Source of the DNA: Otis tarda
Lineage: Eukaryota; Chordata; Aves; Otidiformes; Otididae
Assembly: GCA_026413225.1 (NCBI GenBank)
Contig: CM048552.1
Coordinates: 53,521,001 to 53,585,000 of the forward strand
Reading direction: 5' to 3'
Length of the DNA stretch: 64,000 bases
Shown here: piece by piece, positions 1-44,752 of the stretch
Numbering within the stretch: position 1 is the first letter of the stretch
How the letters are laid out: each line of letters starts with the position of its first letter
Position numbers and translations under genes: made by a program
Notes under the pieces: model-generated
What the model was told of the DNA's origin: nothing
What the model saw: the letters and a program-made list of their open reading frames with translations, nothing else
Database searches by the model: none

Positions 1-863
1 ATTCCCTCTTCACCTTCCAGAGCTCTGCACCTAGCCAACAACCTTGGGAGCCACAAGGCAGCCACAGGAAAAGCCTCCTCCTCCTTCAGCTACTCTGCAG
101 TTCTCTCCGGAGCTTGGGCAGCTCAGAAAGCCCTGGAGTGCTGCATTTAGGATGCCCTGGGCACAGGTGGTCGTGGCAGAGGTGCCAGGGCATCTGCCTT
201 AATCCTTGTACTCAAAGGCTTCAGCAATGCATCTTTGGTGGGCTTAGCAACTGCAATGGGGCATCAGAAGTAGAAACCAGAGGCAGGATCTTGTGGAGGA
301 GCAATCTCATTTGTTGTTTTATTTTAGATTTTGTCCCCTGTTGCGTTTTCTCTGACTTGAATTTGTGATGTACTTGGCTCATATGTTTTGAGCTAGCTGG
401 GGAAGGCTGGGCTTGTTTTCAAGGGGAGGAAGTGCTGTATGCGAACTGACAGAGGGCAGGATGAGGGGGTTCTCTTTTCCCTAAATATTGTGGAGATACT
501 GTGGTGTGAGAGCCCCTGCTCTGCAGCAGTGCCTGAACTCAAGGGACTTTCAAAATACCTGAGATATAGCAGCTGAGCCTGCCTGACAGCGAAGTGAGGC
601 TGTAGAGGCGTGTGAGAGCCACTGTCTTTACCCCAGGGAACAGGGAATTGAGTTCCACTGTGGAAGATGCAACTTAGCAATCATCCTTGGTGAGAAAGGA
701 TTTGAACGCCTCTAGAAGCACAATATTATGAAGACCTGGATGTTCAACAAGGCAACTAATATTTTTGTGTTTCTCCCCACCTCGAACTGCTGCTCGTGGT
801 ATAAAATAAGTAAATGTTCCTTAGAGATGAGAGCTGGGTCCAAGGAATGCTCCTCATGTAGCA
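1..863. other. intergenic, no gene seen
   Basis: No family match, splice-supported exon or RNA gene is visible here. Short open frames occur on both strands, but none resembles a known protein. The expected upstream neighbour by human synteny (ERP27) is not recognised in this window. Confidence 0.6.
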
Positions 864-1418
864 GTACCTGGAGTACTGTGTCCAGTTCTGGAGCCTCCAA
901 CACAAGAAGGACATGGACCAGTTTCAGAGGGTCCAGAGGAGGGCCACAAAGATGATCAGAGGGCTGGAGCACCTTTCCTATGAGGACAGGCTGAGAAAGT
1001 TGGGGCTGTTCAGCCTGGTGAAGAGAAGGCTCCGGGGAGACCTTATAGCGGTCTTCCAGTACCTCAAGGGGGCCTATAAGAAAGATGGGGAGAGGCTGTT
1101 TAGTAGGGCCTGTTGCAATAGGACAAGGGATAATGGTTTTAAAATAGTGGGGAGTAGATTTAGATTGGAAATTAGGAAAAAATTTTTTACAATGCAAGTT
1201 ATAGAACACTGGAACAGGTTGCCCAGAAAGGTGGTGGAAGCCCCATCCCTGGAAATGTTCAAGGCCAGGCTGGATGAGGCTCTGAGCAACCTGATCTAGT
1301 CGGGGATGCGCCTGCTTCTTGCAGGGGGGTTGGACTAGATGACCTTTGAAGGTCCCTTCCAACCCTAACCGTTCTATGATTCTATGATTCTATGATTCTA
1401 TGATTCTATGATTCTATG
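864..1418 (+). mobile_element. CR1 LINE fragment, 5'-truncated, with intact 3' tail
   Basis: The segment encodes the C-terminal part of a CR1 non-LTR reverse transcriptase ORF2. The conserved stretch with [20 protein letters not shown] is followed by LRGDLIAVFQYLKG and ends near 1299. A frame change near 900-915 breaks the reading frame, so the copy is dead. The 3' UTR carries the usual motif around GGACTAGATGACCTTTGAAGG and ends in about six TTCTATGA octamers (1372-1418). Truncation at the 5' end is normal for CR1 insertion. Confidence 0.93.
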
Positions 1419-18605: not shown

Positions 18606-21600
18606 ATGCGCACTCTCATCATCCTTATGCTTCTGGCTGTCTTGGTGATGGCTGCTACTTGCTATGGTAGGTGACTCTTTTTACTGTGTACAGTGATAAT
18701 TCTAAATCTGCAGACATCTTTGTGTTTGTTCAGATGGTTTTTGTTCAACTTTGTGTCATCTTTCCTCTTAATTTGATCTTTTGCCTACTTTTCTGCCCTT
18801 GACCATCCTAGTCCTGCTCCAGAGCTGTCAGCTTCAGTCATTGTCTTTTGTGGTCCAGGATATTTCAGCCCCTTGCTCTCTGTTCTAGCTCACCTCACAG
18901 GCTGCTCCTCTTTCTGTCCCTCTGTTGTCTGCACTACAATAAGCATTCTTATTCTTAATTCTTCCTTGTTAATGGGGAGATTTCTCTTTCTTCTTCTGTA
19001 ATATCAGCCCCCTTTCCCTGTCCAGCACACAGTGCCATACTGATGGAATTAAAATGCTGTTTCATGCAAGAGTTAGGCACATCTCACTGCGCTAATCCAT
19101 TCCCTAAGCATACATGCAGGATTTGAAGGTAAGCAGGTATCATATACACTGTAGTGGCAAGAATACGAAGGTGAGGAATTACGGTTGTGAATCACACACT
19201 GGAAGACCAAGCACAAGCCTTGAAGTCCTGGCTAAGACACCAGGTTGCTCCATTCTAAACTCCTGAACACCCCAAATTCCTTATGCCACTGATCCTTTTC
19301 TCTTCCTTTTAAACAGATGCTATAAAACCTGGCTTCTGATTTCTGTGTTCATGTTCTATTGATCTGTGGTATGTGAAAGACTGTGAATCCCATCAATACA
19401 ATGTCTTACTGTGTGTTTTACTCTTTCTTTCCCCAGAGTCCCATGAGAGCATGGAATCCCATGAGTATCTCAGTAAGAGACTGCTTTACTATTTTCTTGA
19501 ATTTGAAGTGTGCTGCAAACATCTCCATGACCATTTCCTTGTACTTTACTGTGGAGGTTAAATATGCAGAACCACTCAGCCCAGGGAAGTTGAGTTTACT
19601 AGGTGATGGAGTTGCAGGATGAATAGGAAGAGAGGAAAAAAAAAAACAAGCCTCCACGTGTTTGGGCACAAGTGCATAGCAATTTGTTTTGCAAAGAATA
19701 TGATGAGAAGTGGGAAACAAAGAATCATGAACTTAGATCCCTGCTACATCCACCTAAAACAGTTTAAGTGACACTAGAAAAGGACATTGCTCGGACTCCT
19801 CTGTGATGAGCATGGAAGGAGGTACTGCAGAAGCCGCTGACATGATTTGTTCTTCTCCAAGGACAAGGAGAGCCTTACTCTCAGCACCTTGGAAGAAGCA
19901 GGTGGGATGTGTGAGCAGGAGGTCTGGAAGAGAGTGTTAGTGTCACAGGAAAAGCATGAAAGGGTGGAGAGTCTCACCATAGAACAAGCAATGACTGGGA
20001 GAGATTAGAGAACAGATGGTTTGAAACTAAAAAGAAATTAGACCATCTGGGAGAAGAACGTCACAAAACAGCTGGTCAGAAGCACAAAGGCACATGTGGG
20101 TGCCAATGCCAAAGACATCCATAGATTCCTGAACTCTGCAATAGGACTGTGATGTTTCTCAAAAAGCACAGAAGGGACCTTCAGGCACCTCAGTCCAAAA
20201 CTGCCACACAGGTTGCTCAGTGACTGCCTAACCTTGGAGACAGATAGGATTACTCAGGCTCTTCCTGTTTTTACTTAGAATTCATTATTCGTCTAATTCT
20301 ACTGAGCATGCCCAGCCTTCCCATGGTCTGCACAGCTTGGCACCTACCTCTTGGCCAAGCTCCGCTTACTCAGAGAGGCCGTGGCAGCAAAATCCCAATA
20401 GCTTTACCCTGGGTGGCTTGAGTAACAGCAGAGCTAAAGCAGCATGAGCACTTCCATACAGACTGCATAAGCCAGAGGGAAAGCCTGTGTGCTAACTAGT
20501 GAGGTGGACAGCAGGGAATATTAAAAGGTCCTGGGTTTCGCTGTGCCTAGGAGGGGGGACAAGGAGGCTGTTATAAATGTGGAAGCTAGCTTTTGTTGAA
20601 ATCTGGCCTTGAAAAAAGTATCTGTATACTCTGAACAACCCCTTGTCTTCTCAGATCCCTTCATCAACAGGCGAAGGGCCAATGGCTTCATACAAGCTGA
20701 CACGAGACTAGAAGCCATCTCTCAGGAGAGGTATGTTATGGCCTCAGGACACTGAGGATGGGAGTGGGGGGAGGTCTCTCCTTGCCAGGCACAGGCTGGT
20801 ACCAGGGGAGGAAGCCATGGTGACTTCTGAGAAGCCTCAGCCCTTATCCCAGTGTGAGGTGCCCATGAAGTCCCCACCCCGGGGAGAAGACAGAACTTAG
20901 AGCAAGTCCTTGTGTTTGAGGACATAGAATCATAGAATCATAGAATCACATGGTTGGATGGGACCTATAAGATCATCTAGTCCAACCGTCTTCCCACTAC
21001 CATTGCTGCCACAGCTACTAAACCATATCTTGTAGCTTCTCATCAAGCCACCTCTTGAACACTACCAGGGACGGCGACTCCACCACCTCCCTGGGCAGGC
21101 CATTCCAGTGCCTGATCACTCTTTGGGAGAAAAAGTTTTTCCTCACGTCCAATCTAAACCTCCTCTGGTACAACTTGTGGCCATTTCCTTGGGTCCTGCT
21201 TGTTACCTGGGAGAAGAGGCCAAACCCCTGCTCATCACAACCTGCCTTCAGGAAGCTATAGAGTGCAATGAGATCTCCCCTGAGCCTCCTCTTCTTCAGA
21301 CTAAACAATCCCAACTCTCTCAGCCGCTCCTCATAAGACTTGTGCTCCAGACCCCTCACCAGCTTTGTTGCCCTTCTCTGGACACGTTCCAGGGCTTCAA
21401 TGTCTTTCTTGTAGTGAGGGGCCCAAAACTGAACACAATACTCGAGGTGCGGCCTCACCAGCGCCGAATACAGGGGGATGATTACCTCCCTGCTCCTGCT
21501 GGCCACACTATTTCTAATGCAGCACATGTCATGTGCTGGGAGGGCTCTGCTTAATTTGTCTGAAGGAAACACGAACAGAAGGGGAGGGAATCAATGTGGG

Positions 21601-22348
21601 ATGGCCAGGAAGGAAGCTCAGCCTGAGATCCTGTTCTAGTCCTCAGTTCTCATGCAGAATTTGCATGACCTTTTCTAAATCATAGGGCTACTGGGGGCCC
21701 CTTGCCTCATCTATAAAAAAAAAGATATAGGCAGTTTCATGACTCATGCAGGGCTTGTGAAAAGAAAGGCTGAAGCATAGAAATCATCATCTAGTGAGGC
21801 ATCAAGGCAAACCTTGTTGCAATACCAGGTGGCCCCTTTGCAGGATGTTTCAAGTCTTTGTTCCATGCGCAGCTTTGGGGAACAGCAGAAGAGCTGAAGT
21901 CAGCAGGCTGGGGAGGCTGTGGAAGGAGAACTCTTCCTCAGGTTGAGGCAGGAGCCATCCACCTCTCCTCACCACCCTACTTAGCCCTGAAATAAAAGAT
22001 TACCGGGGGAAGCAAAACGCTCCTATTGTGGTCATATTGCTCCCTGGGGTGTGGTGAACACAGAAGCTGGTATGCTAACATCTTAGTAGCTGGATGATAG
22101 AATCGGGTGATGGAACCTTAATCCTCATGCAGGGTTGTGGGGCAGGAAAGGGCTGTAGACAGATATTTAAGATGTCAGCACTGACCACTCATCTCTCCTT
22201 CTTTTGCAGGATCAGGGAGCGTAGTAAGGCACCCCAGGAACGCCAGAGGGAGATCTGTGAGGACTACTACCCCTGCGAACAGTACGCTTTTCGCCATGGC
22301 TATCCTGCTGCTTACAGGCACTATTTTGGGAGGAGGAGGACTAAGTAA
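18606..22348 (+). CDS. MGP: matrix Gla protein (MGP), four coding exons
   Basis: MGP is a secreted, vitamin K-dependent inhibitor of soft-tissue calcification in cartilage and vessel walls. The coding exons are 18606-18666, 19437-19472, 20655-20730 and 22210-22348, with phases 1, 1 and 2 and GT-AG introns. They give 103 residues, the usual length. Residues 1-19 are the signal peptide. The mature chain starts [13 protein letters not shown] with three Ser-x-Glu sites of the kind phosphorylated by Golgi casein kinase (FAM20C). The gamma-carboxylase docking site follows as [13 protein letters not shown] (ANxF type). The Gla domain has Glu at mature positions 37, 41, 48 and 52, plus position 2, and the Cys54-Cys60 disulfide pair. 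No furin site separates the docking site from the Gla domain, as expected for MGP. A CR1 lies in intron 3. The C-terminal domain ([20 protein letters not shown]) differs clearly from the human form but keeps all key residues. Confidence 0.95.
20923..21560 (-). mobile_element. CR1 LINE fragment in MGP intron 3
   Basis: The plus strand begins with the reversed octamer tail (ATAGAATCA repeats, 20923-20950), so the element points to the minus strand. The minus-strand frame (about 21018-21572) encodes the CR1 ORF2 C-terminus, including [19 protein letters not shown] and [20 protein letters not shown]. The frame is unusually intact for about 170 residues, but the 5' half of the element is missing. 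The tail sequence belongs to a different CR1 subfamily from the copies at 864 and 33346. Confidence 0.93.
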
Positions 22349-25345: not shown

Positions 25346-25351
25346 TATAAA
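25346..25351 (+). promoter_or_regulatory. TATA box of the second Gla gene
   Basis: A clean TATAAA (GGATATAAACTG) lies 92 bases before the ATG at 25438. It predicts a start near 25376 and a leader of about 60 bases, close to what is typical of osteocalcin genes. Confidence 0.7.
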
Positions 25352-25437: not shown

Positions 25438-28400
25438 ATGAGGAGTCTGCTGGCACTGCTGATTGTGACTCTGGCCCTGGCAGCGCTCTGCTGTTGTGAG
25501 AAAGGTAAGGGGATGTGTTCCTGGGAAGGCTCCCAGGACCTCTGCTCAACCCTGCAGCTTGCCATCAGCCTCCCATCAGTCTGGGAGAGACGCACAGCTT
25601 CGGGGGGAGGAGGTGCACCACCAGTCATTGCACAACTTCTTATCTCTGTCCCAGAGACAGAGTCATGGATAAGAGAGGGCCTGGGGACAGAGAGCCTCAT
25701 CTCTCTCTTCCACTGGTCAACTCTTTTAGTTGCACCATTGAATTGCAGCAGAGAATTTGAACACTTTAATAAGTTTAAGTATTAAACCAGTTTAGCATTT
25801 ACATGAATTGGCAGAGGTATGCTGGATACTCACTTTTGAGTAAGAGGGTTGAGATGCCGGCAGATTTGTGTCAACAGCAGGGAGAGGGATTTTTGTGTCT
25901 GCCAGCCCTGGCGTGCTGTAGCATCACAGAGATAGGCAACGAGTCAAGCCTTCACCAGCAGGGAAATGTGGCATGTGGAGAACTTCTGGAGGAAAAAAAC
26001 CATCCTGTTGGTGGTTAAAAAGAAGGGATTTGTCCCATTGATGTAAGAGCATATGACATTTGAAGATGATTTAGAAAGGGTGACTTAATGATGAAGAGAT
26101 AGTAACATCGTGGCAGCTCTGTAGCTGATGAAGAGAGAGGGAAGGGGGGAAGCTCAGAAAAACAAGTGTTTTCGCTTTACAGCAGGAAAAAAGAAGCTGA
26201 GCAGGATAAAGCTCTGCTCTATCTTTTCCTGTATTATCTAATTCAGAGTTAAATTTCATTCAGTCCTTGGTCTCAGATACTTGATACTGGCAAATACTTT
26301 TTTCTTTTTTCTTTTTTTTTTTTATCAGTGTTATCCTTCTCAGTCTCTTTCTCACTTTTTCACTCTGGAGTACATATCCACTTTTTTTTTTTTTTAGTCA
26401 TTATTGTGTTCCAAAATACTTACTAGCCTGAGTAACTTCTAAATTATTATTATTTTTTAAATCCAATGAATGTATATATTGCTTAAAAAATAGAACTACA
26501 CACAACCCTTTTCACACAAAGTTTTTGTTTAAGAACAGTTGTTATTTTATTGGTCTCTAGAGTCCACTTTCTGCCCATAAATACACTTATGCCAAATACC
26601 TGGTGACTTGAAGGGAACTAACACTGTTGAAAAAAGTATGGCAAAATAGCAGAAGAAAAAAATTGTGAAATAGGACAGTGTGGGAGAGCCAAGATTAGGA
26701 GATTTCCATTTCTCTTACAGCACAATTTCCTTGGCTGTTTGCAGGGAGCATTAAGGATTAAGAGTAGAACTGAACACAGAAATACAGTGTGTAAATTCTT
26801 CTTGGGAGGGCTGGGGAGCCAGGTACCTCATCCATGAGACAGAAAACTATGAGGACAAAGTTGCTCTGAATTTTTGGCCCTATTTCTCTTCCTAATCAAT
26901 GGCTTGTGATTTCTCCCTAGTGTTAAGGAAGCCTCTCTTTCCAAAGATAGAGGAGATGCTCAGCTATCTTCAGGTTCTGTCCAAATTCGGGGTTTTGCTC
27001 AAATGGTGCCACTAGCTCTATCTGTCCCTGCTCTTAGCAAGAGTGAGGAGGGAGAAGGAGGAGCATCTTCCGCCAGCTTCCACAGTGGTTATATCTCTAT
27101 TGTGTCAGTTAATCTAGGTCAGAGGAAGCTGAAATTAATCAAGTTCAGGCATAATAGATGAATTTTGCTGTGGTGGAGAAGTCTATCTCTAAATGATGGG
27201 TGTTAATAAAACCCTTTTCACGAGGAACAGACCTGCTGGGAAAGTGGGGGGAGCTGGACACAGCCAGTAGGCAGAGGGATTCAGTTACACAGTGAAGCAG
27301 AGGAGCAGGATTCACAAGCAAACTCCTTTCTGTGTGTCTGTCTTCCAGATCCCAAAGATGCCCCAGGATCTCCCAGTGCTGACAGTGAGTATATCGTTGT
27401 GACCAACCCTAAGTTCCATTCTCCTGCATCTACTTCCTTTCTTCTCTTTGAAGGTTCAAGGAATGAACAAGAACCATGCTGAGTCCCTCCATCTGCTCCC
27501 TTTTTGCTCACTCAGAGGTTCAGTCCCCGAGGCGCAGGAGCACCTGCAGCAGAAGTGCTTTCACAGCCACGGGGACAGAAGACACGAGGGAGGGTCAGCC
27601 TCTGTGCACTGACAGCCTAGCATCACTCTGGATGTGCTAGTGCCATAGCCTGCATCTCCACAACCCTTCAGCAGCCCTCAGGCAAGACATGAGTCCTGCA
27701 GGTTGTTAGCAGTGGGATGCTTCTCCCCTCTGTGAAACAGGTTGATGTAGGTGGAGAAACACAGCCAGTCTCTTGGCTTCTCTGACCTGGTGTCAGAGAC
27801 CTATCCAAAGTGACTACTGTGTCCCTAGACTGTTAAGAAAGCAGAACCTGCTCCAGGGCCTCCAGGTACTGCTCTTTTGGATCCACTGAGCAGCTTGTCT
27901 TGTTGTGCAGAGTCACAGAACAAAAAGGTTTGGTGCCACACGGCAACAGGCTGTGACATCCCTGCCAAATCCCATAAGCTGGAGAGCCTGAAAGCAAGGA
28001 CCTGCCTTAGCTACTACTGAGAGCTGCAGTCCCTCCTCTTTCTGGTTGCTTGGGACATGAGCATTTGCACATCTTGGGATGTCCACAGCTTCTGCTGCAA
28101 GCTGATCCTGGCAGAAATCTGTATGGAAAATCCCCCTTGTTCTTCCCTATCTCTCCTTTCTCACACCTTAAAGGATAACATTGCTGCTAGGGAGTATGAA
28201 AGCTGGTATTTCTCCAGTGAGCCAATACAAACACAGATTGGGAAAGGGGAACAAAATGTGAAGAGTGTTCAGGGAAAGCTGGTGATTTCTGACAGCTCAT
28301 TAATTGGCAGTTTCTGTGTAGTTGGTGTTTTGATCCAGACTAAACTTCAGGTTGCTCAAGAAGGGGCACCTGCCAAACAAAAACATGATCAAACACCCCA

Positions 28401-31147
28401 CAATGACGAGGGAAGGGCACAAAACTCACTGTCTGCCCACAGGTAGAGGTCTTAGAAACTGCCTTCTCCCAGTGACAGTAACATTTTGCCAGCTTCTCTG
28501 TAGAACCATGTGCTGGTGTTGCTGGTGTGCTGGCATCTGTGCACACCTCTGCAGTTGCAGGTCCACCCCATGGAGAGATGCTGGCCTGTGCTGAGCCCTG
28601 GCTGAATCTGGGGACAGAGTGGCTCTACCTGCTGTTTGTGGAGTGCTCCACAGCACGCTGGTGTTTGCACAGCCACAAATCCAAGGAGGCAAATAAGCAA
28701 CTGCACTGACCTGGTGTGTTGATGGAGACCAGGGGCCAAGCTGTCATGGCAGAAAGACCTCTCATGATCTCCAAGTCCTGAACACCAGGATCTCTGAACC
28801 TCCTGGGTGTATTTCTCCCTGTGTGATGTCTACTGTCATTATTTTATACCCTTCACCTTTCATGGAACTCTGTACATGTGAGCATTGCTATTTCCATGTG
28901 CTGCCTGTTGCTTATGGCTCACTAGAGGCATCTTTAAGGCCTGGTGGCTGGTATGCTACACCACTCTCAATCTGAGTTAAAATACAGAAAGGAAGCTAAG
29001 ACTGAAGTTAAATGGGCTATAGAAAGAGGGTGCCATTCCCTTCATTTTCTCCTTCTTCATATTTTATGCTGTCATGACTTTGCCTTCTGCACATTTGCTG
29101 TGGACTCAGATCATGTTGTGTGATAAGGGAACTGAGTTTACGACAGGCTTTTCCTCCATGTAGGTGTGCAGGCTGGAATGAGGATGAAGCCCAGCTGTTG
29201 GGCTTTGGGTGGACAGTGGGATGAGCAGAGATGAACGGGAAATTAGGATGGCTTGTGTCAGTCATTTGCTTGAGAAAAGAGTAGACTGTCCATTTTCAGA
29301 GGTGAGAATGATCTCTGTTTTTCATAGACCACAGGCCTGCATCTCTAACCTGCTATGTTCTGTCTCGGTAGGTATCAAGATTAAAAAGGAAGTTGCCAAT
29401 GCCTTTGTGAAGAGGCAGAAGAGATCCAGCGTCTATGAACGGTAACAACTCAGGAGTCAGGCTGAGAGCGGGGCTCTGGACCTGTTCTGAAGAGTGGGTG
29501 GGAAGGCAACAGGATATGACAAGGCATTAATTTGTTGTAGATCTGTGTTAGTACCTTCATGTGTTGAAGGAAAAAGGCAGTAGGAGACACTTATTGATAA
29601 AGAAATAATTCCTTTTTTTTTTCATAAATATCCTTTTGAGACCTCATAGCTGGATTCTTTACATTTGTTCCAGGGAAGAGCACAGTACTAGCTGTCTGGG
29701 CTAGCGTGGGGACAGCAGAATACAAGTTAGAAGCTGCTTTAACCTACAGGGTCATCAGAGCTGGTTTCTGGGATAGTGATAATCACAGAGCCTTGCCTAC
29801 AAAGGAAGCACAGCTCTGTTGCAGGGATGAGTCTAGATCAGAATAGCTGTTCTTTCTGAAGCTGTGGATCCTACATATGTTTGTGCTGAAATCCTAGGCA
29901 CAAAGCTTTGGAGAAATCCTAGATATAAATATTTGAAGAAATTTGAGGTCATGCAAGAATGTCTTCACAAATTTCCTGGAAGAGGTTGTTAAGCCACTGT
30001 CTCTCATGTAGGCTTGTGCAAAAAGAATTTTTATGTATACTTATTATCCCTCTTTGGATCGGAAGGAAAATGTTAGTTTTAGATAACAGGAGATTGCGAG
30101 GCTCAGTCTGTAGCGGAGAGGATCAGTGTTGTAGCAGAGGAACTGGCTGATGTTGAAACATGCAGTGATTAAAAACAGGATAAAAATCAGTATCAGCAAC
30201 TGTATATCTGTACTCACTACCCTCTTATACGTGAGGCATCGTAAAAGTAGCTTCTGCTATAAGCATTAATCAGGAACAACTGAGATAGTCAGACATCCTG
30301 CCATATTATTTGATCATGAGGTAAAGTTAGTCCATAAATATGGATGCAACAAATGGCGTTCAAGGGTGCTGCAGGCTATTTTCAATACAGAAATAAAGTA
30401 ACAATTTGTGAGATACTAGTGGGACTCCTGTAGCTATGTGTACAGTCTTCAGGAAAGATTAACCAAACCTAGAAGAGGAGTTGAAAAGGGCATCCAGAGT
30501 GTACAGCTGAGACTAAAAGATTTTGTTTAGCCTGGCAAAACAAAAGCTGGGTGGAGAGAATATTGCTGTCAACAACAGAACTGAGGGTGATGAGAAGAAA
30601 CTGCTTAAACTAAAGGGAAATAGTGGCTAGTGGGAAAATGAGCAGCCAATGGATGCAAACAAAGGTAAACAAAAAAAAATTCGCCCTCTTCCCCCCTCCC
30701 CGTCCCAGAAGAAAAAAAAAAATATTCCTGTGTAGTTGGGAAATGGAGTTGGAGACAAAAAGACCCCTAACTATTTCTGCAGTCTCCTTTACTGATAACA
30801 CCTCAAGAACAATTGCTTAAGTCGGGTTCAATTCCAACTTTTCCTAGCATTAATTGAGTAGTCTATTGCTGTCAGTAGACATTTAACTCACCATGAGAAG
30901 ATCCCTGTTGGGACACTCTGGGGAATCACTTTTCTCGTGTCAGCGTTGGGGTGTGAAACTTCTTCAGCTGCATTGACTGAATCTGCAGAATGGCCTCTCT
31001 CTCTTTGTCTACTCCAGGTACTTTGAGTATTACAAAAGTCCAATGGAGCAGATGCATGAACGTTGTGAAAACTACCCACCCTGTGACTATCTTTCTGACC
31101 AAATAGGATTTTCCATGGCCTACAACCGTTTCTTTGGGAGATACTAA
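25438..31147 (+). CDS. osteocalcin-like (MGP/BGLAP family) Gla protein, four coding exons
   Basis: The coding exons are 25438-25504, 27349-27384, 29372-29441 and 31018-31147, with phases 1, 1 and 2. All have GT-AG introns, and they total 303 bases (100 residues). Residues 1 to about 18 are a hydrophobic signal peptide, followed by a short acidic/proline propeptide. The propeptide carries a gamma-carboxylase docking site of ANxF type (VANAFV) and the furin site KRQKR (residues 48-52). The predicted mature peptide is 48 residues and begins SSVYERYF. It holds three Gla-position Glu (residues 68, 72, 75), the Cys74-Cys80 pair, Asp81 and Asp85, and the osteocalcin-like segment LSDQIGFSMAYNRFFG. 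Length, furin site and DQIGF resemble bone Gla protein, while location and exon phases match MGP next door. All residues needed for carboxylation and calcium binding are present, so it is not a pseudogene by sequence. Whether it is the bird BGLAP, a separate paralogue or a named BGP2/3-type gene cannot be settled here, so I give no symbol. Confidence 0.9.
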
Positions 31148-33345
31148 GGATGGGATGATCACTTCATTCATTTTGCTTGGGACCACTCTGAACCCCACAG
31201 GAGAAAGAAGATTGTGGGTGCGAAGGAGGGAAGAAAAACATCTAAACTGGGGCCTTCTTCAGTAGTCTCCCTAATCAGATAGAACAACAAGGCAATAATT
31301 ATTCCACTTGTTGAGCTTTGATTAGCTTTCTTCCTTTCATGAAAAATGTTTCTCTTCAGTCATCTTTTGTGGTATTTTGAGCTTCACCAGAAATGATTGA
31401 AAAGATTCTGTCTTACCTCCTTCTATTTTATTCCCCATGATGCAATAGGTGGAAAAATTGTGATTTCTCTCAAGAAAATCAATGTATGCCTTAGAAAAAT
31501 AACAAGAGCTTTTTTTCCATCTTCTACAAACTGCAGGAGGGTTATAGGAGAATGTCACAATGCATGTAAATGTGATGGATCTGACCCTGGGATAGTCACT
31601 GGGAAGCAGGTGGAACACAGTGATTAGGAAAGTTCCATATTTTCAGGTGGAATAATCACTGTAAATATGTGCCAATGTAGGCTCATTTTGTAAGGATAGA
31701 AGTGTGGAAATACTACCACATAGCCAGAAATCCAGTTCCAGTACACTCTTCTGATTATTCTGTCACAAAATTTGCCTGTTTATCAGTTACAGATACATTC
31801 CCAAAGGTGTGTTTGAGGAGTCCCTTTAGGCGAACCCTTCCATTTATCTGGTGCATTCAGTGACTTCTGTAAAAAGTAACTTGGAAATCTCTTCTTGTTT
31901 TTGTTACTGTTGGTTTCTGGTGGAACTGAATATAGCTAAGAAGAAAAAAAAATAATCTGTTCCTCTCTGATGCTTTTGCATTTATGCCTAAACTAAAAAG
32001 GTCTAAACAGCTCAAAAAAGTGCAAACAAATAAAAAAACCCCAACTTTATGAAATAAACAAAAAGAAAATTAATTCAAAAAACAATTGAAGTTGGGTCAG
32101 CATTTGGTTTATTCAAGGCAGCTTGTGTGTCTCTGAGATATATATACAAAAATACATATGCCTGTATTTACATACATATCTTCTTTCTTCTGCACTTCTC
32201 CATTCTGTCCCCCTGTACGCATATTATACCTCAGCAACTTTCTGCACAGTCTCCCTTGATGTGCTCTGTCAGCTTTCCTTCCCTGAGAGGTAGACAGTAG
32301 ATCCCATCTCCAAGGCCAGGGACTGCTGAGCCTCAGGAAATTGAGAAAGTCTGAATCTCTCTGGTTGTATGTAAGCTGGTGCAGCCATCTACAGCTGCTG
32401 ATTGCAATAAATACTGCTTATGTAAAGCAGGTTGGTGTGCTGCTTCTCTCTGTTCCTCTCTACAACCTTTACCCGACGTTGAAAAGATGCCTAGAAGGCA
32501 AAGCCTGCTCCTGCAAACCCTGAGGAGCCGGATCCAGGTGCATGAGGCTTTTTTCTTCCCTCCTGTGCCCCAGTGTGAATCAGAAGTGACTACATTGAAA
32601 TTCAGGTCATTATTCCAGTACATCATGACAGTGAAGGAAAGAAGGGCCAGGCTTTTCCTGATTCATCATCTACCGAGTTCAGCATTTCTCTGAAAGACTT
32701 TGCCCTCAAGTAAGGACACGGGATAAGTCCACAGAGATGGCTGCCAGGGTGTAAGCATCTCTTGTTTGGCAAGCTGCTAAGGACTTGCACAGGCTATGCT
32801 GACCTTGGCCAAAGAGAAGACAGTTAATAAGTACCTCTGCTTGTCTTGGTCAAACACCCGGGACTGGTTGCCTTACTGGCATAAACTGATGGAGCTGAAC
32901 TGCTCACAGCAAAACTCTCCTCTGAATGGCATCTAGAAAAAATGAACAAAGTGCTCATTGAAAGCAGTGAAAATTTTCTGGGAAAAATACAAGAGAGAGA
33001 AGTGAAATCCTAGTATCTGCTGTACTAGTTAGGGGTTTTGCTGTTGCATGGTTTTATTTGTTAAAAAAAAGAAAATTAGCTTCCAGTCTATATTTTCATG
33101 TTTCTGTTAGTTCTATACTTTTTTCTCCATTTCAGTAATTTTTTTTTTTTTTTTCTGGGAAGTTGCACACAAAGGCCTTGATCATGTCATCTGCTCTGTG
33201 TCACCAGATCTGAAGTCGTTATGGCCTTTGGGGATCTGAGTGCACAAATCAGATTACAAATTTACTGCTGGACTGGAGGAACTCGTTGGATCAATGCAGA
33301 TTGAAGTACCATTATAAATTCTCTGCTGCCATCTTATGGACATTG
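31148..33345. other. 3' UTR of the second Gla gene, then intergenic
   Basis: The first part is the 3' UTR of the Gla gene. Candidate AATAAA signals lie at about 32026 and 32053-32058, and I cannot say which is used. The rest shows no recognised gene. Confidence 0.45.
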
Positions 33346-34984: not shown

Positions 34985-37449
34985 ATGATGCCAGTGCTGC
35001 TGGCCAGCCTTCTGTTGCTGATCTCCTTGCAAAGGCTGGTAAGAGGGGGTAAACTTTATTTGAAATAGTGAAATTACTCACTGAAATAATACTTCTTTCT
35101 TTTTTTTTTTCATTTGAAACATGTTCTTTAAAGAGCTTTGGGTTCAGCTTAAACTCTTCTGCTTTCAATTACTCTATTCCATTTCTTACCTGTCCTAATT
35201 CCTTTTAGTTACTTGGTTGGAAATTTCCTCTCGTTTGGAGCCAGATGGTTTCCCAGGTTGTGTCTGTGATTAGATCTCATGTTGCTCTCCTTTTCCAGCC
35301 TGTCTCAGCCAAGGTTCTGGCAAAAGCAGTGTGTTGTTGGATGCGACAGTGACAATATTGCTCTATTCCTTGTGACTGCCTTTTAGCTTTCCTTTAAAGC
35401 AGTTATGGTATCATGGAGAAATAAACTGAATCCTTGTATAGTTTATAGTTTATGGGCCAGTATAACTTCAGAGGCTAAGAAAGGTATCGATTTGGTAAGG
35501 TGTCTAGGATGAATATTTGAGATGAAGTGAATATCCATTTGTAGAACTCAAGTGTCAGCTGATTACAGTACTTGACTAGTCTACTAGGAGATCAAAAAGC
35601 AAAAAGAACAATGTCATAACTCACACTATTTCTTAGGTCTTACTACACAAGGTTTTTATTAATTAGAAATGCTAGAAACAGATAATTGGTGTGACATTTT
35701 ATAGACAGTATATATTAGAGGTTATTTTCCTCTTACAGCACCCAGTTGTGTAAATCCTTATTTCTGTGTTTAATGTTTATTTATGTGACAACTCCAGCTG
35801 ACCTCACTAAGACAAACTGGACAAATAAAAATTTTGGCACAGTGCTGTTATATTGTCCTTTACAACATTGTGCACTGGAGCCAAAACATATCTGAGAGGT
35901 ATTACAAAACAGGATGAAGAAATTCACCCCTCAGATGTGTTCAGACTGCACTGCACAGAGAACATAGTTTTGGTTATTCTTTCCCTCCTCAAAACCACTT
36001 ACTAATCATGAGCAGAATATTGAAACAAATGGACCATGGGTCTGTCCTGAAGGCCTTTGGAGGGCAAGAGTATAGAGCTCTCCTGAAGTTCTTAATGCCA
36101 CTGATCCCCATAAAATAAGAACTCTGGCATCCTGGCTGGTATTTGCCTGAGCAGAAACTTGGTCAATAACCTAAGGTCGCTCAGGAAGTGCTTGCCAAAG
36201 ATGCCTACCTGCTGTGCTTGCTCTGCTAATAATGACAAAGAGGCAAGAAGAGGGTAGGGAAAACCCTGGCTTGCATCCATAGAGATAGATATACAAAAAG
36301 TGTACACTTCTGATGCTAATTTTCTTTTTTTTTTTTTTTTTTTTTTTGGTTGCAGGCTATGTCGTGCCTCATGATGGATATGGCTCTGCATTCCTTTGAT
36401 GACCAGTATCTGGGGTGCAGAGAGCAGGTGATGGAAGAACTGGAGCGAGGAGGCTATTTCCAAAAGGAAGTAGCTGCTAACAAGGACTATTTGAATCTCT
36501 GGAAGAAGGCTCAGGAGGCTTTTTTAAAGAGCCCTGTAGGTCTCCTGAGAGAAATGCATGAGAGCCATGCCATAGTCCTCATGGCTTACACCATGAACTC
36601 TTCCCTGCACTCTCAGCTGAACTGGGCTACATCTAGAGCAGGAAGCTCTCTAGAGCACTACAGACACAACTTTAATTTCAAGTATTTTCACTTTTACCTA
36701 ACAACTGCTATCCAGATAATGAAGCAATGGCAGAGCAACAAGGAGAGTATGGGAAAACGTAAGTGCTACCGGGTGCACAGGGGTGTAAAAGACTTATATA
36801 TCGAGGCCATGGTAGGCAGCAGGGTGCGATTTGGCCGTTTTACCTCCACCTCTCGCCTCTGGAATGAAGCCCAGAAGTTTGGGAATGAAACTTTGTTCAC
36901 AGTGACCACTTGCCTGGGAGCAGCTGTGCAAGGCTTTTCTTACCACACATCTGAGAAGGAAGTCCTGATTCCCCCTTACGAGATATTCCTTGTCAAAAGT
37001 TTCTTTCGGACACAGCGCGGTAACCGGCTGCATCTGCACTCTGTGGGGAACTACAGCAAGTACCACTGCCAGCTCGTGGAAGGTATTGTATATAGTACTT
37101 CATGCAGGGGGGACGTAGGACAGTCTGGTCTCCAGTACCCCAAGTAGCCCTTACCAGCTGCACCTACATGAGGCCACGCTCAAGGTCAAATCTGTAGCTT
37201 GCTCACTGTGTTTGCCTACAAGAGCCTGGACCTAAGCTAAAGTAGTAGGTAGACTTCAGAAAATGGCTCATTGGGGTAAAGGCTGTGTTAGCAAGTGTAG
37301 GAAGCTTTAGGCAGCCAAAAGAGGTCTGCATGACTGCTCTTGATTTTCTTTCAGCTTCAAGAAGCAAGAACAGCGGTTCCACTCCTCTCGCCTCTGCCGT
37401 TCTTCCTAGTGTAGTTGGAGTTTTCTTGTACTTGGCCCACAGTGACTAA
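34985..37449 (+). CDS. ART4: ecto-ADP-ribosyltransferase 4 (ART4), three coding exons
   Basis: ART4 is the GPI-anchored ADP-ribosyltransferase-family protein that carries the Dombrock blood group in humans. The coding exons are 34985-35038, 36356-37082 and 37355-37449, giving 291 residues. Exon 1 encodes the start of the signal peptide (MMPVLLASLLLLISL). Exon 2 encodes the whole catalytic domain. Exon 3 encodes a small-residue region followed by a hydrophobic tail (VVGVFLYLAHSD), a typical GPI-attachment signal. The R-S-E triad is complete: Arg at about residue 160 in YRVHRG, Ser at about 182 in FTSTS, and Glu-Lys-Glu at about 218-220 in SEKEVLIPP. The E-x-E form is that of arginine-specific transferases. 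Activity of mammalian ART4 has not been firmly shown, to my knowledge. Position next to MGP supports ART4 over other ARTs. A run of 23 T precedes the exon 2 acceptor. Confidence 0.93.
36325..36347 (+). repeat. 23-base T run at the ART4 exon 2 acceptor
   Basis: The run lies just before GGTTGCAG, the acceptor of the main ART4 exon, and forms its polypyrimidine tract. Confidence 0.85.
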
Positions 37450-38508: not shown

Positions 38509-39297
38509 TTATGTTTCTTGCTGCTTATCTGTTATCGCTGGAATGCAGGCTTCAACCATTTTAACAAAGGTTTGTAATCCTTCACAAGGTGGCTTCAGCA
38601 CCCTGAAAGCCTCCTCTAAGTAGTCAGCTGCTATTTTCAGGCTTTTATTTGCGGGTCTGTATCCTCCAAGGATAGCCTGTAGGAAAAGAAGAAGTGAAGA
38701 TGAGGATGTTAGAGAGAGCTGTTGTGACGTTTCACTTGAGGAGGAGCTGTCTTCTGTGGTACTTGGTGTCTCATTTTGTTGCAGCATCTTCATAATATCT
38801 TCATAGTCCATGAGAAGTTCGGATACTTGGAGGGATAAGGCAGGTGAACTGATTAACTGATGAATAGCAGACTCTACTGTGCCAGGGCAATTGTCATGCT
38901 TCAACAACACTGCAACAAGTGCACCCATGATGTTTTTTACAACCCCTTTGTAATTCTCAGAAAGTTCCTTTGCTGCAGTGACTTTTTCCTGCAGGGAGGT
39001 GATGGGACCAGCAATCTTAGCATGCAAACTATGCCTGATGATTTCCTGTACATCTCTGTCTTTTGTCTCCATTATGGCTTGCATCTCTTTCAAAGCACTG
39101 ACCAGGAGCTGCAGATTCTCTTTAATGCTGAAGTTTTCTTTTACTGACATGATGGGAAAGTTGGTGCCAAGATGTGCATTGAGGAGTCGGAATATTTTAT
39201 TGGTTGAAGACACATAGATGTACACTAAGTCATGCAGATTCTGGCAGGCTGTGACCAGCCTGTCTTTATCGCTCTTAAAACCAAGGCGGGCTAACAT
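38509..39297 (-). CDS. C12orf60: C12orf60 homologue, main coding exon
   Basis: A 262-residue open frame matches the uncharacterised vertebrate protein C12orf60 (245 residues in human) in length, position and orientation. Shared features are an N-terminal helical region (DKDRLVTACQNLHDL, KEMQAIMETKD), a central serine-rich linker (about residues 182-202) and the C-terminal LKIAADYLEEAFRVLKP segment. No signal peptide or membrane segment is evident, and function is unknown. A splice acceptor (TTTTCAG) lies just upstream on the minus strand, so the exon begins at 39317, only 20 bases before the chosen ATG. The frame stays open through those bases, so a short N-terminal extension from an upstream exon is possible. 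The first exon is probably at the WBP11 CpG island (about 48.3-48.4 kb), as in human, which would place SMCO3 inside its intron. Confidence 0.88.
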   Translation of the reverse strand: MLARLGFKSDKDRLVTACQNLHDLVYIYVSSTNKIFRLLNAHLGTNFPIMSVKENFSIKENLQLLVSALKEMQAIMETKDRDVQEIIRHSLHAKIAGPITSLQEKVTAAKELSENYKGVVKNIMGALVAVLLKHDNCPGTVESAIHQLISSPALSLQVSELLMDYEDIMKMLQQNETPSTTEDSSSSSETSQQLSLTSSSSLLLFLQAILGGYRPANKSLKIAADYLEEAFRVLKPPCEGLQTFVKMVEACIPAITDKQQET

Positions 39298-39359
39298 TTC
39301 TGGAGTGAGGTCTGGCTCTGAAAAGCAAACAGAGGAAATCCAGAAGATACAGAGGAGTA

Positions 39360-42300
39360 AAACTGGATATATATTTTAGCTAGAATGTTACATTTCTGAA
39401 ACCAGTATTACAAATTATCAAGCTACCTGACCCACCCTTCCCCAAGACATGATAGAAGAAAACACAGAAAAAGCTCTTTGTCAGCCTTTGCAGTGGTCTT
39501 ACCAAGCAGACCAGCAAAATATGGTATAAACAGCTGCAAGCATTCTTACTCTTATGGCTGCAGAAAGTATGACTCTGACCTTCAACGTGCAATCTGACAA
39601 GCAGTGAAAGTGGTGTAAGTGAATTTTTCTTGCCTTTTGGTGTTCATTGGTAAATTTATGGGAGTCCTAGCAAGCAATCTAATTTACATCATCCTTAGAA
39701 CTACAATCCTTCAATTTGTATATATTAGTGGGTCTACATAGAATTAAACTCATATTCTGGGGAGAGGGAAAGAGACAGAGCAGAGGCAAATGCATCAGAG
39801 TTCTACATTCAAGAGACAAAGCAACTGAAGACTGAGTAACACAGTGTTTTGTCAGGCTACATTTTCCTGTGAAGTGGCCCATATCTATCAGTTCATACAG
39901 TGGCTAGATGTTGCAAGTATCCCATGGTAGGTGGAAGCACAAAACATTCTCCTTGCTTGGGCTCCCATCTTGCTACCGTTTTGACTACTAAGGAAATTGT
40001 ATCTTTCTGCTTACACCAAAGAGTTCTCCCCAGGCCAACTGCAGGCACAGTCCTGGGACAGCACACAGCTGAGGGACTGCTCCTAATTTTGCCTTTGCTT
40101 GTGCCAGAGCCCTGAAGAGCTAGAATGGTTGCAGCAGACATGTCATCAGCTATTGCTGTGGTTAGATGCAGAGTTAGATGTGTCCAAACAGTTGTGACTG
40201 CCCATCCCACTGCATACTTTTAAAGACTTTTCTCTCACTGCTCAGCTCAACCCTCTGCATCTTCCTCCTTTCCCTTCCTATAGCAAAAGTGATCTGAAAA
40301 TGTGTGAACTGGAAAAATTGATTTTAGGCTCCACTGCTGTTCAACCAGAGCTGGCTCTGGGGCTCCACACCACTTCTTCCACTCTCACGGAATCAGAGAA
40401 GAGGATCTGGGAAACTGCAGCAAAGAAAGGTGACAGGCACTCCAGAAGAAGACCTTCCCTCAAACTTAATAGGTCTGAAACAATAGCTATTCATCTTCCC
40501 TAAAGAACTGGAGTAAAGCAGGAACAAGATTGCTTGTTTATTGTTTAAATAATTTGCTGTCATTTTCCTAAACAATAGAGACTCTAGAAGAGAAAAATTT
40601 GCATCCACTGCAGACCTTGAGGACCTGAAATCAGTTTCCAAACTACAGAATGTGAAACAGAGGGAATTTCCAGCCTGATTAATTCAATTCAGTCCAATTT
40701 TGGAAGAAGTATTTCAGCACTACATGGCATTCCCAGTTAATAACAGGAGTCACTAACAGACCATTGCAGAAAGGTAATAGTTAAAGCATTAGTGTTCTTT
40801 CTCAGCTCATTTTCTCATGCTTACGGCTCTGAAAACAAGGGGAGTTTGTCACTCTGGTGCTGAGTTGAATACAACAGCTCAGCTTTCAGTGCAAAACAAG
40901 CTGGCAATTGCAGATTACTCATTTTATGCTTGATCTTGCACTTTCATCTGAAAACTCAACCATCCTCTGCTGGGGAGACAGGACTGATGATCAGATCCTA
41001 GTGAGCGGCAGGGCCATCTTTCTAAGGAACGGAGCATGGAAGATGTCTAACTTGGATGAAGGCAGAAGCACAAGCTTGTCTTGCTGAGACAGACAAAGCC
41101 TGTTTTCACTGTCTGTGGAATCTGTTATTCTATTTGTGTGGGATTGTTCAACATTTCTTCCATAATTCACAGGTGTACAAAATCAGTCATGGCAACAATT
41201 CTTTATATCAAGGAAAAGCTGCAAGCATTAGTGTTTATTGTTTATAAACAACAGAAATGTATCAATTCTAATTAAAAAATTAATCCTGTATCTGGATGAA
41301 TGAAAAGCACTGTCCTACATGTTTTATGTTCTGAGAACTGCAAGTAATACCATCCTCTTTCAGCCATGGCTGTAGGTACCTGTGATGGTACCTTTGTCGT
41401 AGGCAGAGGGATTCATGCGTTACCTATTCTCTCAAGGAACAGAAGGCCTTTGGAGGGCAAAACTATTGGAAACTAGCATTAAATAAACTGAAACGTGTTA
41501 AAATTGGAAGTGGAAAAGAGGAATAAAATGAAACTAATGCAAGTAAACATCACACAATAGAATTAATGACAAGTGGGCAGGCAACAGGACCCAGCTGAAG
41601 CCCAGGCTCTGGATCCCTAACTCATCACATGCTGCTGGAAAGCACTAGAGGAATGCAGCAGAAAGCAGATGAAGTCACTGTCCCATACACTGATTGCAGC
41701 TGATTGCAGGAGCACTCAGACAAAACCAGGTAGGCAGTCTAAATGTTTAATAAAAGCAACTTCTGGAGAAAATCTCCCTGGAGTTGGAGAAATAGTCAGA
41801 CATATGGAAATATATGTGACCTGCCTAACTCTAGAAAGCAAATGTAAAAACTAGCAAAATTGTTAATGTGAAGAGTAGAGGGTAATTTTAGCATTGAGAC
41901 AGAATCTAGAGCAGTTATAGGAAGCTGAAATAATAATGCATAAAGAATAGATGCTAAAAGTCTCCTCCACATCTATGTGAAATGTTTATTGGAGTACTAT
42001 TCCTCTAAGAACACTTTGTCTTCTCAGTTTCTACAAATAAGGAAAAACAAATGACCCTTCAACAAAATGTCACTGGAGTAGAAAGGATCTAATATCACAC
42101 TAAGTCAGAGAGCAGGCCAGCAGCCTGCCCTGAGGCAGAACTGATAAGAATTCACATCTTGTATTGACATGAATTTATGTTTCCTGAAAATGACAAGCTT
42201 TTACTGTTTATGTACTTCGCTCCTTCCAGCTAGAAGAAGAAGAAAGATGTGTTAAATAGTTTGTTGTCTTAACGGAGCTACAAGGTAAGTGGCTGGAAGA

Positions 42301-44071: not shown

Positions 44072-44752
<681 letters not shown>

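Follow-up and report, generated by a model that had tools for sequence, protein, structure and literature searches.

A Gla protein gene beside MGP in Otis tarda is very probably the orthologue of chicken OC3 (Bgp2)

Results and Discussion

Identity of the gene downstream of MGP

In a 64,000-nucleotide stretch of the Otis tarda genome (contig CM048552.1, positions 53,521,001 to 53,585,000 of the forward strand; hereafter the window), we analyzed an osteocalcin-like gene lying directly downstream of MGP. The gene is in all likelihood the orthologue of the chicken 'osteocalcin-like protein OC3' (Bgp2), a second osteocalcin-type paralogue beside MGP, and we refer to it as OC3. Others have very probably named it and traced its evolutionary position already, and it is hence not new. 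What the window holds is a complete four-exon reading frame in tandem with MGP, carrying a furin motif and predicted calcium-binding residues at osteocalcin spacing.

The locus is the first line of evidence. Leurs et al. 2021 (PMC8006282) put Bgp2 beside Mgp in lissamphibians and in sauropsids, birds among them, infer its loss in mammals and ray-finned fishes, and give OC3 as its older name (Cancela et al., via PMC8006282). Cancela et al. 2014, Laize et al. 2005 and Viegas et al. 2013 are cited via PMC8006282. The order MGP, OC3, ART in the window agrees with the position of Bgp2 in that paper. The first-pass annotation of this DNA had wondered whether the gene was already named, and it appears to be, as OC3/Bgp2, with chicken RefSeq NM_001201386.1 (PMC8006282, PMC9150503). 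Its statement that human has no such gene between MGP and ART4, and its proposal of an old tandem copy lost in mammals, agree with the published history of Bgp2; the other origin that it offered, a relocated BGLAP, has the direction wrong, as BGLAP (Bgp1) is the moved copy in PMC8006282.

The second line comes from chicken OC3 primers. When reversed, the printed reverse primer (PMC9150503) spans the exon 1/2 junction of our spliced model, where 18 of its 21 bases match. In the unspliced window it matches at most 15 of 21 bases anywhere, and none of 1000 shuffled primers did as well as the real one. The comparison with the chicken OC3 cDNA covers the two printed primers only. As both contain mismatches, the DNA is most probably from a species other than chicken that seems to carry this gene as well.

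Gene model and predicted protein

Splicing and translation confirmed the gene at 25438..31147, as had been annotated. All introns are GT-AG with phases 1/1/2, and the 303 nt of coding sequence give a protein of 100 residues with a single terminal stop (exons in Table 1). The N-terminus is hydrophobic and signal-like, as judged by eye. ANAF follows, then the furin motif KRQKR, and then a mature chain of 48 residues beginning SSVYER, with Glu at positions 5, 9, 16, 20 and 23.

The furin site, the three Gla-position Glu and the Cys pair reported in the first-pass annotation are all present, the Glu and Cys residues at osteocalcin spacing: E16-x3-E20-x-C22-E23 and C28-D29 align with osteocalcin without a gap over 36 columns. 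Their osteocalcin counterparts are Gla17/Gla21/Cys23/Gla24 and Cys29/Asp30. The equivalents of Asp30 and Asp34, traits of the osteocalcin family, are also found, and so is a furin-type site before a mature Gla peptide of 45-50 residues (KRQKR and 48 residues, with the cleavage predicted).

In a tblastn search of the window, exon 4 matched human osteocalcin with 44.3 bits and E 3.4e-9. As a chance control we searched 40 order-1 Markov windows, among which the best match scored 23.5 bits. Pfam and NCBIfam scans gave no Gla model in the OC3 protein, with Uteroglobin (E 0.19) and PsbQ (E 0.066) appearing below threshold only. Human mature osteocalcin likewise has no Pfam Gla match, and the missing Pfam match of OC3 is therefore uninformative. 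The predicted structure of exon 4 alone has two helices (mean predicted local distance difference test score, pLDDT, 64; predicted TM-score, pTM, 0.30), too weak for a fold comparison.

Affinity to osteocalcin or to MGP

We compared the whole OC3 protein with 177635 solved sequences. The best matches were osteocalcin precursors (E 5.2e-12, 9mqb), and mature osteocalcin 1q3m (E 4.4e-7) scored better than mature MGP 9nub (E 5.6e-5). We take 13ib to be human, 1q8h pig, 1q3m bovine and 1vzm meagre osteocalcin. Over the 36 ungapped columns of the Gla domain, OC3 shares 18/36 residues with human, 18/36 with pig, 18/34 with bovine and 19/36 with chicken osteocalcin, compared with 14/36 for the window MGP and 11/36 for human MGP. 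Five osteocalcins and the two MGPs have no letter in common at 19 columns, where OC3 is osteocalcin-type at eight (P26, D29, L31, D33, Q34, I35, F37 and F44 of the mature chain), MGP-type at four and neither at seven.

The likeness to osteocalcin (BGLAP/Bgp1) thus includes the furin-type basic site, as in the human precursor, a mature chain of similar length (45-49 residues in osteocalcin), the Gla/Cys spacing, Asp30, Asp34 and the G-F segment (G-I in 1vzm), whereas the alignment is poor over the N-terminal part of the mature chain. MGP (9nub and the window copy) has in common with OC3 the exon phases, ANxF codon for codon and the Gla core E-x3-E-x-C, but it has no furin site, keeps its docking segment in the mature chain and lacks Asp30 and Asp34. 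Measured against this MGP type of precursor, OC3 does not conform, since KRQKR is present.

We also built an unrooted tree of eight sequences (OC3, five osteocalcins and two MGPs). OC3 was placed between the MGP pair (Shimodaira-Hasegawa-like approximate likelihood ratio test, SH-aLRT, 92.8; ultrafast bootstrap, UFBoot, 93) on one side and the five osteocalcins (86.2 and 84) on the other. A tree of this kind had been proposed as a check in the first-pass annotation. Because our tree is unrooted and OC3 lies between both groups, it does not decide for or against an affinity to osteocalcin. A position of OC3 inside the osteocalcins survives the approximately unbiased (AU) test (p 0.17).

Several points weigh against our assignment. 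Fish osteocalcin 1vzm matched OC3 with E 0.063 only, behind MGP, and shares 12/36 residues with it, fewer than the window MGP. In the unrooted tree, osteocalcin affinity requires a root on the MGP side, and OC3 within the MGPs also survives the AU test (p 0.16 and 0.13). The published tree of Leurs et al. has no outgroup, and the authors describe its Bgp1/Bgp2 node as weak by SH-aLRT (PMC8006282). The chicken OC3 forward primer matches poorly, at 15 of 20 bases in the 5' untranslated region, equalled by 20 of 1000 shuffles. Furthermore, that OC3 is carboxylated, cut by furin and able to bind mineral is a prediction from its residues.

In another reading, OC3 is a tandem copy that has diverged from MGP but is closer to it than to osteocalcin, with a furin site and two Asp that are ancestral or convergent. 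The MGP gene about 3.1 kb upstream with identical exon phases, ANxF lying codon for codon on that of MGP, and the four MGP-type columns would suit such a copy, which is also compatible with our tree and the AU result. Elephant shark Mgp2 likewise has a furin motif just past ANxF (alignment positions 53-56 after 48-51), although it is classed as an MGP and differs in its divergent Gla domain (PMC8006282). In score, identity and eight of the 19 discriminating columns, however, OC3 is nearer to tetrapod osteocalcins, and Bgp2 stands beside Bgp1 in a tree of 107 sequences (PMC8006282); we therefore regard an MGP copy as improbable. The sequence of OC3 appears to tilt to osteocalcin, and the locus and the published tree weigh more in leaning to the osteocalcin-type paralogue.

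The gene might instead be BGLAP itself, the sole osteocalcin of the species, which either stayed at the MGP locus or came back to it. Bgp does lie at this locus in ray-finned fishes and sharks (PMC8006282). With chicken osteocalcin, however, only 19 of 36 columns agree, and the chicken OC3 primer matches the window locus, which makes this reading extremely unlikely compared with orthology to OC3.

The carboxylase docking site in the propeptide

Counted back from the furin cut, the OC3 propeptide (window 29372-29424) has K-16, A-10, N-9, F-7 and V-6. Human osteocalcin has F-16, G-10, S-9, V-7 and V-6 by the same count, and no ANxF. A docking Phe at -16 is usual for BGLAP, and this osteocalcin-family trait is absent from OC3. 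ANAF occupies codons 9-12 of exon 3, exactly where the window MGP has ANGF; the MGP Phe of the -16 type is codon 3 of the same exon, at which OC3 has its Lys.

We count F31 of factor IX as position -16. The docking site of MGP consists of ANxF and a Phe six residues earlier (PMC8006282, supplementary legend). In the structure of the carboxylase with factor IX, F31 is strongly conserved and occupies a hydrophobic pocket; the F31G change lowers binding more than 10-fold (PMC12589487).

The ANxF of OC3 is the MGP-type half of the docking site and not the docking Phe of osteocalcin. The ANxF site claimed in the first-pass annotation therefore stands as a motif, at -10 to -7, but not as an osteocalcin docking site, whose F-16 is replaced by Lys. 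From the residues, the missing Phe-16 may weaken or alter docking of OC3 to the carboxylase, so that weaker or partial carboxylation would be expected relative to a propeptide with the whole site.

We also considered that the recognition site has been divided among the paralogues, with both halves but no furin site in MGP, Phe-16 only in BGLAP and ANxF only in OC3. We offer this tentatively and consider it rather unlikely. If true, OC3 would dock unlike BGLAP and be carboxylated to another degree or at other vitamin K levels. With its altered docking site, OC3 is a natural variant on which to learn what part of the propeptide is required by the carboxylase. This difference in docking, taken from one sequence, may be the sole fresh point of the analysis.

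Expression of chicken OC3 and a possible role

In chicken trachea, OC3 was lowered in unvaccinated birds challenged with laryngotracheitis virus, in a list shared with epiphycan, aggrecan and chondroadherin (PMC11802539). In the chicken hypothalamic POAH, OC3 rose along with MGP and CHAD at a false discovery rate <0.1 (tabled 6.42, 6.30, 5.31; PMC12208832). Other papers checked chicken OC3 by PCR in liver, spleen and granulosa cells or placed it in a predicted breast-muscle network (PMC9260106, PMC9150503, PMC10867563, PMC9689937). The bare symbol OC3, assumed here to be the osteocalcin-like gene, occurs in papers on uterus, neck muscle and feed intake (PMC10048286, PMC11566174, PMC4979145), in the last beside MGP. 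These records suit a gene of the connective-tissue and cartilage matrix, and none of the studies was aimed at OC3.

A role in the eggshell was considered and rejected: the symbol appears once in a list on hen-uterus ageing, under calcium ion binding (PMC10048286), which is no evidence on the shell. Leurs et al. 2021 reported that they had come across no account of where Bgp2 is expressed (PMC8006282), and among the matches listed no paper links the chicken OC3 RNA-seq records with Bgp2. Uniting the Bgp2 phylogeny with these records would help research on bone and cartilage.

A silent or decaying copy, little transcribed in Otis tarda, would be compatible with OC3 identity, and K-16 would fit it, Phe being strongly conserved there in carboxylase substrates. 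On the other side, the four exons, splice sites, furin motif and predicted calcium ligands are all intact, and chicken OC3 is transcribed; we give decay a very slim chance.

For an active OC3, we propose that the protein would be secreted and that its propeptide would bind γ-glutamyl carboxylase in the endoplasmic reticulum via the MGP-type ANxF/V segment (-10 to -6). In the mature chain, Glu16, 20 and 23 would be converted to Gla with vitamin K, and furin would cleave after KRQKR. The released 48-residue peptide might then bind calcium phosphate in the matrix of connective tissue or cartilage. If PMC8006282 is right, the small Gla proteins of birds include a third one, absent from mammals, so that what is known of osteocalcin and MGP from mouse and human would leave the avian set incomplete.

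Neighbouring genes in the window

The coordinates of OC3 and the other features are given in Table 1. The window MGP, on the same strand as OC3 and with its stop about 3.1 kb before the OC3 ATG, matched solved MGP 9nub with phmmer at E 6.6e-25. No third Gla gene was found in the window by tblastn with both window proteins and a six-frame scan for E...E.C; among the nine matches of the scan, only those in the MGP and OC3 exons looked like Gla domains by eye.

Table 1. Features of the OC3 gene and its neighbours in the window (ORF, open reading frame)
Feature	Position	Strand	Description	Basis
OC3 coding exon 1	25438..25504	+	67 nt; signal-like peptide MRSLLALLIVTLALAALCCCEK, split codon D	Splicing/translation; signal by eye
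OC3 coding exon 2	27349..27384	+	36 nt, phase 1/1	Splicing/translation; chicken OC3 primer over exon 1/2 junction
OC3 coding exon 3	29372..29441	+	70 nt; propeptide with ANAF (-10 to -7), KRQKR, start of mature chain	
OC3 coding exon 4	31018..31147	+	130 nt; Gla domain PMEQMHERCENYPPCDYLSDQIGF and stop	
TATAAA box	25346..25351	+	92 bases 5' of ATG	Motif scan, consensus match only
First AATAAA polyadenylation signal past stop	32029..32034	+	More at 32053 and 32406	Motif scan, consensus only
MGP gene	18606..22348	+	Exons 18606-18666, 19437-19472, 20655-20730, 22210-22348; 103 aa	
ART-family ORF	36320..37147 (stop-to-stop)	+	Downstream neighbour of OC3	Pfam ART E 5.2e-58
DUF4533 single-ORF protein	38509-39375	-	Adjoins ART gene	
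DUF4533 single-ORF protein	44072-44752	+	Opposite strand to the 38509-39375 ORF	

We named the ART-family ORF ART4 by position. Judged by position as well, the DUF4533 pair is probably SMCO3/C12orf60. A series of ORFs at 52-60 kb reads to us like WBP11. This gene order is, we presume, the one expected for a vertebrate MGP locus. Two further ORFs, at 862-1299 (+) and, inside MGP intron 3, at 21018-21590 (-), look like the ends of CR1-type long interspersed nuclear element (LINE) reverse transcriptases.

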